This document shows positions 1,828-32,454 of a DNA stretch of 32,665 nt, piece by piece (the first letter of the stretch is position 1; each line of letters starts with the position of its first letter). The notes beneath the pieces were generated by a model. The model made no database searches, was not told the DNA's origin, and worked only from the letters and a program-made list of their open reading frames with translations. Source of the DNA: a virus; the IMG/VR virus record IMGVR_UViG_3300042881_000733, positions 1 through 32,665 of that record; one strand, 5' to 3'. The translations under genes were made by a program, and so were the position numbers.

Positions 1828-1973
1828 TATTTGAAACATTAGAATTAGAGTTTAAATTAACTCAGCTACTAAAGAAACGTGAACAATTATACTTAAAAGG
1901 TGGCAATGATGAAAAGCTAAATGATAAGATTAGAGCAGTACAACAGGAATTAAGAAATAAGGGTAGCAATTAG
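1806..1973 (+). CDS. Small coiled-coil-like protein, 55 aa
   Basis: The ORF begins at an ATG that overlaps the end of the DUF3310 gene by 22 nt. It encodes MDRTEQIVFE...RNKGSN, a highly charged helix with leucines spaced as in a coiled coil (LEFKLTQLLKKREQLYLK). No function is recognised. Its stop codon lies inside the stem of the hairpin at 1962-1981, so it probably ends this operon. Confidence 0.55.
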   Translation: MDRTEQIVFETLELEFKLTQLLKKREQLYLKGGNDEKLNDKIRAVQQELRNKGSN

Positions 1974-1981
1974 CTACCTTT
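1962..1981 (+). terminator. Hairpin terminator, weak T tail
   Basis: GGTAGC (1962-1967), loop AATTA, GCTACC (1973-1978) form a perfect 6-bp stem followed by TTTG. The U tail is short, so termination may be partial. It sits at the end of the 55-aa gene and about 60 bp before a class I promoter. The arms resemble those of the terminators at 9542 and 27647. Confidence 0.5.
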
Positions 1982-2039: not shown

Positions 2040-2100
2040 TGTTAAAGTTTTGTTAAAATTATAATAACTTGTTTATAACTGAAAAATAGGTGTATATTTG
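2040..2100 (+). promoter_or_regulatory. Class I promoter module, copy 1
   Basis: The exact 19-mer TGTTAAAGTTTTGTTAAAA lies at 2040-2058 and contains two TGTTAAA repeats 11 bp apart, one helical turn. TATATTTG at 2093-2100 matches the Bacteroidota -7 consensus TAnnTTTG, with a TTG about 21 bp upstream of it as a possible -33. An A-rich leader (ATAACAACAAA) leads to the ATG at 2134. The same layout occurs at 8544 and 27681. I infer an early promoter with an operator or activator site. Confidence 0.75.
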
Positions 2101-2133
2101 TACTCAGATAACAACAAATAAAACAAAGAAATT

Positions 2134-2352
2134 ATGACAACTATTCAAAAAAACAGTATCTTAAAAGCAACTTCAGTATGTGATTCAAACTGTGTATGGT
2201 TTGCTAAAGTAATTGAGCGCAAAGGTAATTTTATCGTTGCAGTAATTGACAATCAAATTGTACGTAAAAAAGTAAATGTTTTCAACGGACAGGAGTACGT
2301 TTATTTGTTAGGTAAATATTCAATGGCTCCAATTTTTAAACTTCAAAATTAA
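2134..2352 (+). CDS. Hypothetical protein, 72 aa, first gene after class I promoter
   Basis: No recognised domain. The protein looks like a small mixed alpha/beta fold, with a central beta-rich stretch (CVWFAKVIERKGNFIVAVIDNQIVRKKV). It is the first gene behind the promoter at 2040-2100. It shares the start context ATTATGACAACT with the gene at 8637, the first gene behind the second copy of that promoter. A host-takeover role would fit an immediate-early position but is speculation. Confidence 0.7.
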   Translation: MTTIQKNSILKATSVCDSNCVWFAKVIERKGNFIVAVIDNQIVRKKVNVFNGQEYVYLLGKYSMAPIFKLQN

Positions 2353-3665: not shown

Positions 3666-4802
3666 ATGAAAATTAATTTAACACATAAAATCAATAACGA
3701 TAAATATACTGAATATATTTACGAAGCATTTGATATTCAAAACAAAGATGAATCTAATGTAATAGTTGAAGCTAATTTAGAAAATTTACCTAAACAATGG
3801 AACATAGGTGTAGTTTATGGTGGTAGTGGAACAGGTAAAACAACTATATTAAAAAACTACTTTAAAAAAGAAATGGATAAATCATACTTTGATAATTCAA
3901 AATCTTTAATAAGTAATTTTGATTGGTTAGAACCTAAAGATGCTACTTTTTTATTATCAGCTATGGGTTTAAGTTCTGTGCCAACTTGGTTGCGACCTTT
4001 CAATACTTTATCTAATGGAGAACAATATCGTGCTAATCTTGCTTATATTGTAGGAAGCGCAAAAGAAAACGAAGTAATACTAATTGATGAATATACATCT
4101 GTAGTAGATAGAGATGTCGCTAAAGCTATGTCTAATGCGTTACAAAAGTATATAAGACGCACAAACAAAAAAATAGTACTTGCTTCTTGTCATTTTGATA
4201 TTATGGAATGGTTGCAACCTGATTGGATTTATTCACCATCTAAAGGGCGTCTTGAAATAGCGCCATCACTTCGGCAACCAAAAATTGAACTTCAGATATT
4301 TCGATGTAGATATGAAACTTGGAACTTATTCAAACAACATCATTATTTAACTGAAGATTTAAACAAAGCAGCAAATAATTATATAGTTTTGTGGAATGAT
4401 AAACCGATTTGCTTTATAGGTATATTACCTTTTCCGGGAGTAGGTGATGAAAAAACAAGAAGAATCAGTAGAATAGTAGTGTTACCTGATTTTCAAGGTT
4501 TAGGTTTAGGAAAAAATATATTAAATTATATTTCTTCTTTATACGCAAAAGAAAAAAGTACAATGTATATTAGAACTATGTCGCCTGCTTTAGGATTAGC
4601 TTTATCAAAAGACGTGAATTGGATAGCAACATCTTCAAATCTAAAAATACCTCAGCAGGATTCAAATGGCAGAAAATTAATTGAAAGACCAAGCTACAGT
4701 TATAAATACATAGGACAAGAATCAAATGATGATACTTCAATAATTAAATTTAAAACAGAAGTTTATAGAGATGTAGCACAAAATCAAATATCAATGTTTT
4801 AA
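3666..4802 (+). CDS. ABC-type ATPase fused to a GNAT (Mom-like) acyltransferase
   Basis: The N-terminal half is a soluble ABC ATPase: Walker A GGSGTGKTT (52-60), signature LSNGEQ (115-120), Walker B with D-loop ILIDEYTSVVD (138-148) and an H-loop histidine at 176. There is no membrane domain, so it is not a transporter. Residues from about 205 onward form a GNAT domain with HHYL (225-228) and the acyl-CoA loop RIVVLPDFQGLGLG (269-282). The GNAT part resembles phage Mom-like proteins; Mu Mom is the GNAT-fold enzyme that hypermodifies adenine in phage DNA to block restriction. I infer a DNA-modification or anti-restriction role. The full length, 378 aa, appears intact. Confidence 0.8.
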   Translation: MKINLTHKINNDKYTEYIYEAFDIQNKDESNVIVEANLENLPKQWNIGVVYGGSGTGKTTILKNYFKKEMDKSYFDNSKSLISNFDWLEPKDATFLLSAMGLSSVPTWLRPFNTLSNGEQYRANLAYIVGSAKENEVILIDEYTSVVDRDVAKAMSNALQKYIRRTNKKIVLASCHFDIMEWLQPDWIYSPSKGRLEIAPSLRQPKIELQIFRCRYETWNLFKQHHYLTEDLNKAANNYIVLWNDKPICFIGILPFPGVGDEKTRRISRIVVLPDFQGLGLGKNILNYISSLYAKEKSTMYIRTMSPALGLALSKDVNWIATSSNLKIPQQDSNGRKLIERPSYSYKYIGQESNDDTSIIKFKTEVYRDVAQNQISMF

Positions 4803-5035
4803 TGAAAGAAATTACTGCTGAACATTACAACCTTGCAATATACGAATACGAACAAGGAATGACTTTAGAAGAACTACGTGAAGTTATAAAGCATTACGAA
4901 GATTTAGAACTATTTGAAGTATGTCAGGGTGTGCATTTAGCACTAGAAGTAATTAGATTTCATATCTTATTTGATTTAGCAAGAAAAGAACCAATAAAAA
5001 CAAAAAAATTAAAATGGAAATTAACGAAAAAATAA
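4802..5035 (+). CDS. Hypothetical protein, 77 aa
   Basis: A helical, acidic protein with a basic C-terminal tail (KTKKLKWKLTKK). Its ATG shares a base with the stop of the ABC/GNAT gene. Its 3' end overlaps the DnaA-like gene by 22 nt. No domain recognised. Its position between a putative modification gene and a replication-type gene does not define a role. Confidence 0.65.
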   Translation: MKEITAEHYNLAIYEYEQGMTLEELREVIKHYEDLELFEVCQGVHLALEVIRFHILFDLARKEPIKTKKLKWKLTKK

Positions 5036-5526
5036 AAGAATTAGTATTGCAACAAACAAACATAAACGTAGATGATACTACACGTACACGTGAGCAAGTA
5101 GAAGCACGTAGTTTATACTACACACTAATAAAAGAAATAGCACCTAAAACAACTTTAAAGCAAATAGGTAATTCAGTTAAAAAGAATCACGCTACAGTTA
5201 TCTATGGATTAAATCAATGGGATATGCTTGTAAGATACAACCCAACACTAAACAAGTACAAAGAACGCATTTTAAAGATGTTTGATAAAGAAATAGATTC
5301 AACTGATATAGATTTACTTCGCAAACAAGTTAATCGCTTACAAGGTGAATTAATAGACTTACAAATAGAGAATGAAAGACTAAGAAAAGAACTATTAAAC
5401 GACGAACAAGAAACGATTAAAAACATCAAAGAACTATTACATAGATTTGAAGGAACTGAACACCACGAATTGTTTTTGTTTAGATTAAATCAATTAGTAG
5501 ATATAAATAGTAAAAGAAAATTATGA
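5014..5526 (+). CDS. DnaA domain IV-like DNA-binding protein with C-terminal coiled coil
   Basis: Residues 24-66 (RTREQVEARSLYY...TTLKQIGNSVKKNHATVIYG) follow the C-terminal helix-turn-helix of bacterial DnaA, where the RDHSTV signature contacts DnaA boxes; here it reads KNHATV. There is no AAA+ ATPase domain. Residues about 98-135 (LRKQVNRLQGELIDLQIENERLRKELL) form a strong coiled coil. It probably binds specific DNA sites as a dimer. It could mark the phage origin or compete with host DnaA, but that is inference. It overlaps the previous gene by 22 nt. Confidence 0.75.
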   Translation: MEINEKIKELVLQQTNINVDDTTRTREQVEARSLYYTLIKEIAPKTTLKQIGNSVKKNHATVIYGLNQWDMLVRYNPTLNKYKERILKMFDKEIDSTDIDLLRKQVNRLQGELIDLQIENERLRKELLNDEQETIKNIKELLHRFEGTEHHELFLFRLNQLVDINSKRKL

Positions 5527-8399: not shown

Positions 8400-8549
8400 A
8401 TGACATACGGACAATTCATAGCTACAATACAATGCTACATACATCACGTTAAAGATGTAGAAGTAAATATAGCTTTACCAAGAAACATTGGTGAAATAAA
8501 GCTAATGAAGAAAATGTACGAAATAGCAGCAGCATACTTAAAATGTTAA
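8400..8549 (+). CDS. Hypothetical protein, 49 aa
   Basis: ATG 8400 shares a base run with the terminase stop. The product (MTYGQFIATIQCYIHHVKDVEVNI...AAAYLKC) is a short helical protein. Its final codons TGT TAA form the first bases of the class I 19-mer at 8544, so the gene end and the next regulatory element are fused. Function unknown. Confidence 0.5.
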   Translation: MTYGQFIATIQCYIHHVKDVEVNIALPRNIGEIKLMKKMYEIAAAYLKC

Positions 8550-8605
8550 AGTTTTGTTAAAATTAACATTGAGTGTTGATAATGTCAAAAGTACGTGTAT
8601 ATTTG
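8544..8605 (+). promoter_or_regulatory. Class I promoter module, copy 2
   Basis: The same 19-mer as at 2040 lies at 8544-8562, and TATATTTG at 8598-8605, followed by TAC as in copy 1. A TTG 19 bp before the -7 box fits the Bacteroidota -33 element. The distance from 19-mer to -7 box is 54 bp, versus 53 in copy 1. The A-rich leader (ATAACAACAAA) and the start context ATTATGACAACT are also shared with copy 1. Confidence 0.78.
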
Positions 8606-8636: not shown

Positions 8637-8807
8637 ATGACAACTCAAGAAAAAATTAAACAATCATTCGAACAAGAATTTAATCAAACTGCAGAAGTAA
8701 TTACATTAGACCAACGCAATGCTTTTGTAATTTCAGAAAATAAAAGTTTTTGGTGTGTATTAACTTCAAAAGGAGTTAAAAAAAATAGTTGGAGAATAGA
8801 ATGGTAA
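8637..8807 (+). CDS. Hypothetical protein, 56 aa, first gene of promoter-terminator cassette
   Basis: The start is ATG 8637. A longer in-frame GTG start at 8595 is rejected because it would put the -7 promoter box inside the gene. The product (MTTQEKIKQSFEQEF...) ends with a small beta-rich part (NAFVISENKSFWCVLTSKGVKKNSWRIEW). Function unknown. It is the first gene after promoter copy 2. Confidence 0.6.
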   Translation: MTTQEKIKQSFEQEFNQTAEVITLDQRNAFVISENKSFWCVLTSKGVKKNSWRIEW

Positions 8808-9541: not shown

Positions 9542-9568
9542 GGGTAGCAGAAATGTTACCCTTTTTTT
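9542..9568 (+). terminator. Rho-independent terminator
   Basis: GGGTAGC (9542-9548), a 6-nt loop, and GTTACCC (9555-9561) pair over 7 bp with one G-U, followed by seven Ts. It separates the small-gene cassette from the virion genes. The class II element starts 7 nt after the T run. Confidence 0.85.
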
Positions 9569-27646: not shown

Positions 27647-27674
27647 GGGTAGTTTAACGGCTACCCTTTTTTTT
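27647..27674 (+). terminator. Rho-independent terminator after NinG
   Basis: GGGTAG (27647-27652), loop TTTAACGG, CTACCC (27661-27666), then eight Ts. The class I 19-mer of the next operon starts only 6 nt after the T run. Confidence 0.88.
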
Positions 27675-27680
27675 GCTATA

Positions 27681-27732
27681 TGTTAAAGTTTTGTTAAAAA
27701 AAATTAGTATATACTTTTTTGATATACATTTG
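27681..27732 (+). promoter_or_regulatory. Class I promoter module, copy 3
   Basis: The exact 19-mer lies at 27681-27699 and TACATTTG (27725-27732) fits TAnnTTTG. The distance between them is 44 bp, about one helical turn less than the 53-54 bp of copies 1 and 2. I see no -33 TTG at the usual spacing. The leader AATAACAAATAACAAATTATG is similar to the other two copies. Confidence 0.7.
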
Positions 27733-27761: not shown

Positions 27762-27866
27762 ATGAAACAATTTATTAAGGATTTTTTCCAAAAACGTGAG
27801 TACCAATACACATTCTGCTTTGTATGCGCAATGTATTTTATTTTACAATTAATTTTTAGAAGCTAA
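27762..27866 (+). CDS. Small membrane protein, 34 aa
   Basis: ATG 27762 is the first start after promoter copy 3, in the same ATTATG context as the other class I first genes. MKQFIKDFFQKREYQYTFCFVCAMYFILQLIFRS has one hydrophobic segment (about 17-31). The stop overlaps the next ATG (TAATG). Function unknown; it is analogous in position to the first genes of the other class I operons. Confidence 0.5.
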   Translation: MKQFIKDFFQKREYQYTFCFVCAMYFILQLIFRS

Positions 27867-30596: not shown

Positions 30597-30809
30597 ATGA
30601 TTTTATTTCTTGTTTGCTTTTGCTTAATTTGTTTAATAGTATTTCAGTTTGTAGACTGCGAAATTATTATAACTCCAATTAAAGGTGTAATGCTTGGTGC
30701 ATTATATAACGACGATGTTTATGAAGATGAAACTGAACATACTATACAAGTGCTTTTATTCGTAATTTCATTTTCTTTTGTATGGATAACAAATGGCTCA
30801 ACCAAGTAG
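30597..30809 (+). CDS. Small membrane protein, 70 aa, two hydrophobic segments
   Basis: The N-terminal 20 residues (MILFLVCFCLICLIVFQFVD) and a second stretch (IQVLLFVISFSFVWI, about 50-64) should span the membrane, with an acidic loop (YNDDVYEDETEH) between them. It overlaps the sigma-like gene by 28 nt. Function unknown. Confidence 0.6.
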   Translation: MILFLVCFCLICLIVFQFVDCEIIITPIKGVMLGALYNDDVYEDETEHTIQVLLFVISFSFVWITNGSTK

Positions 30810-31321
30810 CAGCACATCACGCTGAATGGATTAAAATTATTAATTCGTTTGGTGAATATGATTACGCTGAAGATATTGTTCAGGAAACTTACATAGCTTT
30901 GCATAAGTATGCAGATGCTACAAAGATTATAGATGCTTCGGGCAATGTTAGAAAAGGCTACGTGTTTTTTACGCTTAAAAGTTTATTCTTTCAGTACTAT
31001 AATAAGAAAATGAAAGTAAATAAAGTTTCTATAGATGAACAATTTACTTTATTTGATGATTCTAATTTAGATGAACACAATGCTTATAATGATATTTGTT
31101 TGCTAATAGATGAGGAAATAAAAAATTGGCATTGGTATGATGAAAAGCTATTTAAACTATACCGTGATTCTGATATGAGTATGCGTGATATAGCTAAAGA
31201 AACAAACATCAGTTTAATTTCAATTTTTAATTCAATCAAAAACTACAAAGAAATTTTAAATACTAAATTCGGTAAAGATTACCAAGATTACATTAATAAC
31301 GATTATAACGGAATTTATTAA
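30782..31321 (+). CDS. Sigma-70-like factor, short (ECF-type layout)
   Basis: Residues 28-45 (YAEDIVQETYIALHKYAD) match sigma region 2.2, with AEDIVQET in place of the usual AEDLxQEx. Residues 121-160 (EKLFKLYRDSDMSMRDIAKETNISLISIFNSIKNYKEIL) match region 4, a helix-turn-helix that would contact a -35 element. The protein is 179 aa, as ECF sigmas are. Phage-encoded sigma-like proteins typically direct late transcription. It may read the class II elements (9576, 16571, 17667, 19913); this is inference. Confidence 0.75.
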   Translation: MDNKWLNQVAAHHAEWIKIINSFGEYDYAEDIVQETYIALHKYADATKIIDASGNVRKGYVFFTLKSLFFQYYNKKMKVNKVSIDEQFTLFDDSNLDEHNAYNDICLLIDEEIKNWHWYDEKLFKLYRDSDMSMRDIAKETNISLISIFNSIKNYKEILNTKFGKDYQDYINNDYNGIY

Positions 31322-31332
31322 AACTAAAAATT

Positions 31333-31713
31333 ATGGCACGAGGTAGAAAAAAAGCACAAGGTTTAGGTGATACAATAGAACAAATCACAGAAGCAACAGG
31401 AATTAAAGCAGTAGTAGAAAAGTTTAGCAAAGCTACCGGTGCTGATTGTGGATGTGATAAACGAAAAGAAGTATTAAACAAATTATTTCCTTATCACAAA
31501 CCAAATTGTTTAAACGAAGAAGATTACAACTATTTAACTGAATTTTTTATTGTGGTTAAAGACCAATTAACAGTTAATCAGCAATACAAATTAATCGATA
31601 TTTATTTTAGAATTTTTAATAAGAAATTAGAAAATTCAAATTGTGGTTCTTGTTGGAGGGATAGAATAGCTGAAATTAGAAAAGTATATAACGAATATGA
31701 GTTAGATGCTTAA
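31333..31713 (+). CDS. Hypothetical Cys-containing protein, 126 aa
   Basis: N-terminus MARGRKKAQGLGDTIEQITEATGIKAVVEKFSKATGADCGCDKRKEVLNKLFPY, then a helical segment and NCGSCWRDRIAEIRKVYN. The GDT-x-E-x-x-T-x-x-TGIK-x-V-x-x-F, then DCGCDKRK pattern is one I have seen widely in Bacteroidota phages, near replication or packaging genes; a metal-binding role is likely. The last codons also form the first bases of the window (1-31). Confidence 0.7.
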   Translation: MARGRKKAQGLGDTIEQITEATGIKAVVEKFSKATGADCGCDKRKEVLNKLFPYHKPNCLNEEDYNYLTEFFIVVKDQLTVNQQYKLIDIYFRIFNKKLENSNCGSCWRDRIAEIRKVYNEYELDA

Positions 31714-32098
31714 TTGGAAAGAAGAAGATTTATTTAATTGGTTAAAGGAAAATAAATTTCCTGATTTGGTTAAATCTAAAAATCAAATGTCAAGGTGGGA
31801 TTGTTACTCACCTGACACTAAATTTAGATTGGAACTTAAATGTAGAAAAGCACATTACGATACTTTACTACTTGAAAAGAAAAAGTACGATGCAATGATA
31901 GAAGAATGTGAAAAGCATTTAGATATTCCTTTGTATATTAATTCAACACCACAAGGTATATTCTCGTTTAACCTTTTAAAAATATTCCCAATATGGGAAA
32001 TTAATTATCTGAATCCTGCAACTACGCAATTTACAAACACAAATAGAATAGCAAAAGAAGTAACATATTTACAAATTAAATTAGCAGAACAATTATGA
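31706..32098 (+). CDS. PD-(D/E)XK nuclease-like protein, 130 aa (right copy)
   Basis: Identical in all 130 residues to the protein at 24-416, with several silent changes (for example the Ser at codon 35, TCG versus TCA, and Leu/Lys/Cys codons that follow). The window's end therefore repeats its beginning. See the left copy for the nuclease-like motif. Confidence 0.6.
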   Translation: MLNWKEEDLFNWLKENKFPDLVKSKNQMSRWDCYSPDTKFRLELKCRKAHYDTLLLEKKKYDAMIEECEKHLDIPLYINSTPQGIFSFNLLKIFPIWEINYLNPATTQFTNTNRIAKEVTYLQIKLAEQL

Positions 32099-32454
32099 AA
32101 GATAATCCAATACAATTAGAATACCTAAAATCAGTTTTACTATCGCAGTTATTGTTAGAATCGAATGAAAATTTATTTTTTACAAAGCAATACAAGCAGC
32201 AGATAAAACACAAAATAAATTCTTTAAACAAGGATTTAGAAGAAATAGTTAGAACTGAGTACGCAACGATTTACAAAACTGATGCAGAAATGACTACAAA
32301 CATTTTAAATGCAATAGATGATGTAATTACAAAACTACAAACTTGCACTATAGATGAAATAGTAATGATTAATGCAGTAATTGATAAATACAAAGAAAAC
32401 AAAGAATGGTTTGCTGAATATGCACAGGCAGAATTTTTACGAATCGATGGCTAA
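32095..32454 (+). CDS. Hypothetical helical protein, 119 aa (right copy)
   Basis: Same protein as at 413-769 except for the last residues, I-D-G instead of I-E. The DNA differs at many silent sites. The frame overlaps the next ATG (32447) by 8 nt. In the left copy this overlap is broken by the methyltransferase cassette. Confidence 0.7.
   Translation: MKDNPIQLEYLKSVLLSQLLLESNENLFFTKQYKQQIKHKINSLNKDLEEIVRTEYATIYKTDAEMTTNILNAIDDVITKLQTCTIDEIVMINAVIDKYKENKEWFAEYAQAEFLRIDG

Follow-up and report, generated by a model that had tools for sequence, protein, structure and literature searches.

We found that the 19-mer TGTTAAAGTTTTGTTAAAA, which precedes three promoters of this virus, is probably a tandem operator for a host response regulator of the OmpR family, here called RprY-like, and that this regulator likely activates all three promoters. 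The window, i.e., the whole stretch of 32,665 bases that was analyzed, contains three exact copies, all on the + strand and at the positions given in the earlier note (Table 1). When up to three mismatches were allowed, no further copy appeared in the window, the chance expectation at that threshold being 0.30. Each element is followed by a perfect TAnnTTTG box ahead of a first gene, i.e., a sigma-70-type promoter of Bacteroidota at all three sites. The distances from the start of the 19-mer to the start of the box are 53, 54 and 44 nt for elements 1, 2 and 3, which agrees with the range of 44-54 bp proposed earlier. The small first genes with a common ATTATG start, also pointed out in that note, were recovered here, and the same arrangement recurred among 178 non-redundant in-phase viral promoters, where the first ORF had a median length of 67 aa and ATT preceded the ATG in 67 of 161 cases.

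Table 1. Elements, promoter boxes, hairpins and first genes in the window
Feature	Position	Strand	Description
Element 1	2040..2058	+	TGTTAAA-GTTT-TGTTAAA(A), tandem half-sites at 11 bp, forward; end to -7 box 34 nt; in-phase class 34-38
Element 2	8544..8562	+	Forward; end to -7 box 35 nt; overlaps stop/last codons of a 49-aa ORF (8400-8549)
Element 3	27681..27699	+	Forward; end to -7 box 25 nt, about one helical turn nearer; in-phase class 24-28
-7 box, promoter 1	2093..2100	+	TATATTTG; Bacteroidota vegetative promoter type
-7 box, promoter 2	8598..8605	+	TATATTTG
-7 box, promoter 3	27725..27732	+	TACATTTG
Terminator-like hairpin	1962..1978	+	GGTAGC-AATTA-GCTACC; closes unit upstream of element 1
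Terminator-like hairpin and T run	27647..27674	+	6 bp 5' of element 3
Terminator-like hairpin	9542-9568		Closes unit of promoter 2; from the sequence
Small first gene, promoter 1	2134..2352	+	72 aa; ATTATG start
Small first gene, promoter 2	8637..8807	+	56 aa counted from ATG; ATTATG start
Start of short first ORF, promoter 3	27762..27764	+	ATTATG

Sites 1 and 3 lie directly 3' of terminator-like hairpins, and thus each begins a new transcription unit; at promoter 1, transcription should start a few nucleotides 3' of the -7 box. A PHROG search with the 72-aa product of the first gene returned no match. The unit of promoter 3 leads to an Erf-like annealing protein (28047), an SSB-like protein (29112), an ATPase (29451) and a sigma-like protein (30782). 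The last of these (30782-31321) resembles sigma-70/ECF factors weakly (TIGR02985, 7.6e-8, below the cut-off; phrog_1740) and may be a sigma factor for late genes; a sigma region 2 protein is encoded by Nonlabens phage P12024L as well. Elsewhere in the window, positions 3666-4802 encode an ABC-type ATPase fused to an acetyltransferase-like part (phrog_11143). Positions 1-769 are repeated at 31683-32454 with approximately 90-97% identity. From this repeat, and from the absence of the methyltransferase-like gene (786-1349) in the right copy, it is probable that the genome is circularly permuted and that two of its strain variants were joined in the record. The terminase has 55% identity to that of Nonlabens phage P12024L and the portal was matched by Nonlabens phages only; therefore, the host of the source phage is probably a member of Flavobacteriaceae.

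The occurrence of the element in other viruses was analyzed by searching IMG/VR for the exact 19-mer, with the same letters read backwards as the control. At least 120 viral contig stretches contained the exact word versus 2 for the reversed word, which revealed that the element is not private to the source phage, a question for which the earlier note had proposed a search of related phages. Among cellular genomes from about 85,000 species, just 72 stretches with an exact copy were found, most of them scattered background; thus, the exact 19-mer is much more frequent in viral than in cellular DNA. Viral loci with in-phase sites fell into 22 groups, one of them large, that share no detectable protein, and the carriers include a 77-kb Cbastvirus and 60-kb podoviruses. 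An exact site was also found in a Chryseobacterium phage.

Several isolated phages were examined as well. Tenacibaculum phage Larrie, a Cbastvirus with its own RNA polymerase gene, has 16 sites in reverse orientation (15 perfect and one with a single mismatch; control, 0) at 31, 32 or 42 nt from the box, all inside approximately 9 kb of small genes. In Flavobacterium phage elemoA, two perfect forward sites were detected, both in phase, with the box at 26 nt. No convincing perfect in-phase site was observed in P12024L, phage 1/32 or the parts of pT24 that were searched. Flavobacterium phage 11b has a core promoter and leader like those of site 1 (88% over 64 nt) and no element was found in it, which indicates that the element forms a module separate from the core promoter. 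The leader TATATTTGTACTCAGATAACAACAA after the -7 box (window 2093-2120) is common to many phages, including phage 11b, which has no element.

To describe the geometry, viral contigs were scanned for two TGTTAAA words in both orientations, leaving free both the spacer (1-12) and the distance to TAnnTTTG (15-45). Spacers of 4 and 3, corresponding to periods of 11 and 10 bp, dominated (43 and 16 of 94 forward sites, and 30 and 26 of 104 reverse sites, respectively). At these two spacers, the distance to the box clustered at 25-28 or 35-38 nt for forward elements, and at 21-23, 31-33 or 41-44 nt for reversed ones. The periodicity of the distances had a p value of approximately 0.0005, which is the floor set by 2,000 simulations, whereas p was 1 for all other spacers; in the reversed-word control, both spacers and distances were flat. 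Among the 132 viral exact-19-mer sites listed, the 19-mer was followed by the -7 box after 24-27 (12 sites), 34-37 (51) or 45-47 (2) nt, and few sites had the box elsewhere. After removal of redundancy, the phasing of 10-11 bp holds on 100 viral sites in forward and 56 in reverse orientation, all with spacers of 3-4 bp. Thus, two earlier suggestions made for the source phage, that the TGTTAAA units lie on one face of the DNA and that their distance to the -7 box depends on phase, hold at the scale of many viruses. A direct half-site repeat with a period of 10-11 bp is what was found, as in operators of the OmpR/PhoB family. If the binding center is placed about 2 bp 3' of the center of TGTTAAA, the registers of the two orientations become the same; hence, a single protein may act in both, from the same face of the DNA.

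In host genomes, TGTTAAA-N4-TGTTAAA was present in 92 of 149 Flavobacteriaceae genomes, several-fold above the reversed-word control, and 107 of 114 host sites (most of them from Flavobacteriaceae) were located outside ORFs longer than 120 aa. Five recurrent host promoters were aligned, namely those of LytTR regulator/rpsF, a membrane protein, LETM1-like/DUF4331, DUF4870/DUF4442 and a CAP lipoprotein. In nearly all rows, the half-sites were invariant and the spacer was free; one of the five has the reverse orientation with the box at 31 nt, like phage Larrie. Upstream of the LytTR regulator beside rpsF, about 60 nt are extremely conserved in Flavobacteriaceae (TTTTTTGGTTTTTA..CCGAATTTTTTGTACTATTGTCGATATCTTAACC; L234, L235, L237, L247, L260, L284 and others). 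In Clostridia, 11 of 15 loci inspected (L134, L138, L144, L148, L149, L151, L152, L157, L179, L181 and L195) carry the exact 19-mer at the promoter of a gene whose product is an OmpR-family regulator and has a similar helix, in most of these loci just 5' of a -10 element; this probably reflects self-regulation and would be a striking convergence.

Identification of the probable binder started from Riemerella anatipestifer, for whose regulator 'PhoP' the text of a DAP-seq report gives 583 peaks, an ArcA-like motif with TTTAACA as its most conserved letters, gel shifts for eight targets as well as self-binding, and repression in the majority of directly affected genes (34 repressed versus 16; PMC9603813). 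The 19-mer agrees with the TTTAACA core stated for this motif. Published qPCR primers for the R. anatipestifer kinase and regulator (PMC5399024) encode the peptides GEEGLK, GYQLGADD, KGMGME and KGQGLG. In three Weeksellaceae genomes, the peptides correspond to the RprY-like regulator and the adjoining kinase (GYQ[LI]GADD, [KH]GMGME and KGQGLG) and not to the PhoB-like regulator (L317 type), which is thereby rejected as Riemerella PhoP. Based on these primer-encoded peptides, R. anatipestifer PhoP (RAYM_RS09740) is likely the RprY-like regulator. The best NCBIfam family of these regulators is RprY; since their scores (278-302 bits) fall under the equivalog cut-off of 370, we use the name RprY-like. 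Such a regulator was present in 16 of 18 element-bearing genomes, the other two having no strong match, and its recognition helix RSMDVYIAKLRK is identical between Flavobacteriaceae and Weeksellaceae.

The operon of the RprY-like kinase and regulator has, in its own promoter, a conserved array of 5-6 half-sites per 95 nt in all five Flavobacteriaceae analyzed (26 half-sites observed versus 1.1 in shuffles). The word TGTTAATGTAAGGTTAAA is present in four of them and the fifth has a one-letter variant. A scan of the region directly upstream of the RprY-like regulator gene detected no half-site, because the kinase gene is the first in the operon and it is the kinase promoter that has the array. 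Such an array is the footprint that would be expected under self-regulation. Most promoters of other regulators had none or one half-site.

A different winged-helix regulator of the OmpR family in the host (the PhoB-like L317 type, the L323 type, or a membrane-anchored one such as L330) might use the same 11-bp direct-repeat mode, which we regard as unlikely but the strongest of the alternatives. A head-to-tail direct repeat of 10-11 bp is typical of the whole OmpR/PhoB family. Parts of the recognition helix of the RprY-like protein recur in the PhoB-like and L323-type regulators, and OmpR-family regulators with similar helices, such as the L323 type, could share the site. Furthermore, in one Flavobacteriaceae genome, an array of 11-bp TGTAAAA repeats precedes the gene of the membrane-anchored regulator L330, which thus has an array of its own. 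However, the Riemerella primer peptides match only the RprY-like pair, and the L317- and L323-type promoters mostly contain 0-1 half-sites, the two exceptions among 14 having 4 and 3. A classical Pho regulon with its Pho box was rejected, as PhoU is absent from 14 of 17 motif-bearing genomes.

It is considerably less probable that the element is bound by the LytTR-family response regulator encoded beside rpsF in Flavobacteriaceae, whose own promoter carries the element, with about 16 host sites located between the LytTR gene and rpsF. LytTR half-sites do resemble the GTTAA core, but their usual spacing is 21 bp. In addition, orthologues with at least 58% identity were found only in the Flavobacteriaceae tested, whereas the best matches in Chryseobacterium, Elizabethkingia and Prevotella had 29-40% identity, and the Chryseobacterium phage has its exact site although Chryseobacterium lacks such an orthologue.

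The earlier note had also left a choice between an operator and an UP-like element. The first part was supported, whereas a UP-type element in direct contact with the alpha subunit of host RNA polymerase, with no regulator involved, seems slightly more improbable even than the LytTR protein. Such an element would suit the AT-rich composition, the location 5' of -33 and the helical phasing. On the other hand, two exact half-sites, each with a conserved G, are required at the fixed spacing of 10-11 bp, and no phasing was observed at other spacings; both orientations of the element appeared to function, the register being shifted between them, and host copies also occur at 57 nt from a box as well as within regulator operons. 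Finally, binding by a phage-encoded protein, such as the RHH protein (28622) or the DnaA-like protein (5014) proposed in the earlier note, would match the far greater richness of viral DNA in the exact 19-mer but is the least credible alternative of all, as the carriers include groups with no detectable protein in common and the same element, which matches the motif of a host regulator, stands in conserved host promoters. The sole recognisable domain of the product of 5014-5526 is a DnaA C-terminal DNA-binding domain (PF08299).

With the RprY-like regulator as the preferred binder, a mechanism can be proposed. The two TGTTAAA half-sites, with their 11-bp period, would each be occupied by one regulator monomer, in head-to-tail arrangement and on a single face of the DNA. 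Relative to the start site, the element would span approximately -37 to -65, with an integral number of helical turns between it and the -7/-33 promoter, which would allow the bound regulator to contact host RNA polymerase at the adjoining promoter. All three promoters, which precede small genes of the takeover type as well as replication genes, would thereby be activated. We infer that the regulator binds at these three phage sites, that it activates these three promoters and that they act early. Activation is favored because the distance counts in whole helical turns, which is unnecessary for repression; phage promoters may nevertheless be repressed, given that most of the directly affected genes in Riemerella were.

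Regulation in Bacteroidota phages is a little-studied field. Here, one cis-element recognisable from its sequence marks promoters of small first genes in unrelated phages and directs attention to a single host regulator, and control of phage genes thereby becomes testable by one mutant and one reporter. In addition, our results provide a well-supported regulon footprint for the RprY-like regulator of Flavobacteriaceae, namely TGTTAAA repeats at 10-11 bp that are helically phased with TAnnTTTG, and suggest that phages borrow a host sensing system to switch on their small first genes. It is quite possible, if somewhat more doubtful than not, that a single host two-component system has come to control the early promoters of a broad set of unrelated Bacteroidota phages; the strength of takeover would then be set by the stress or redox state that the host kinase senses, with near-consensus boxes kept in phages and weaker ones in the host. 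The operator type is already known; what appears to be new is its systematic, strictly phased use in both orientations by many unrelated Bacteroidota phages. A search of the open-access literature found no description of such phage use of the operator, and nothing relevant was returned on phage promoter elements or on the word TGTTAAA in Flavobacterium.

Compared with known systems, the three phage promoters resemble the vegetative promoter of Bacteroidota (-33 TTTG/-7 TAnnTTTG) in having a perfect box after every element, and differ from it in that the element is an extra upstream module, the core promoter of phage 11b being without it. When its other strand is read, the B. subtilis-type PhoP box (TTAACA-N5-TTAACA) has the same half-site and 11-bp repeat as the 19-mer; however, a link to the phosphate regulon is unsupported in these hosts. 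The 19-mer also resembles the motif of R. anatipestifer PhoP, an OmpR-family regulator with a TTTAACA core, an ArcA-like repeat, self-binding and an orthologue in most element-bearing hosts, whereas the text of that report describes the motif for host genes and mentions neither phage promoters nor phasing. The E. coli ArcA consensus, TGTTAA-N5-TGTTAA (PMC7303359), has an identical half-site core and the same 11-bp repeat, but the RprY-like regulator of Flavobacteriaceae scores only 110-112 bits on the ArcA model, versus a cut-off of 334. An ArcA box is used by a mobile element too, at positions -76 to -60 of the PY promoter of plasmid R1 (PMC7303359).
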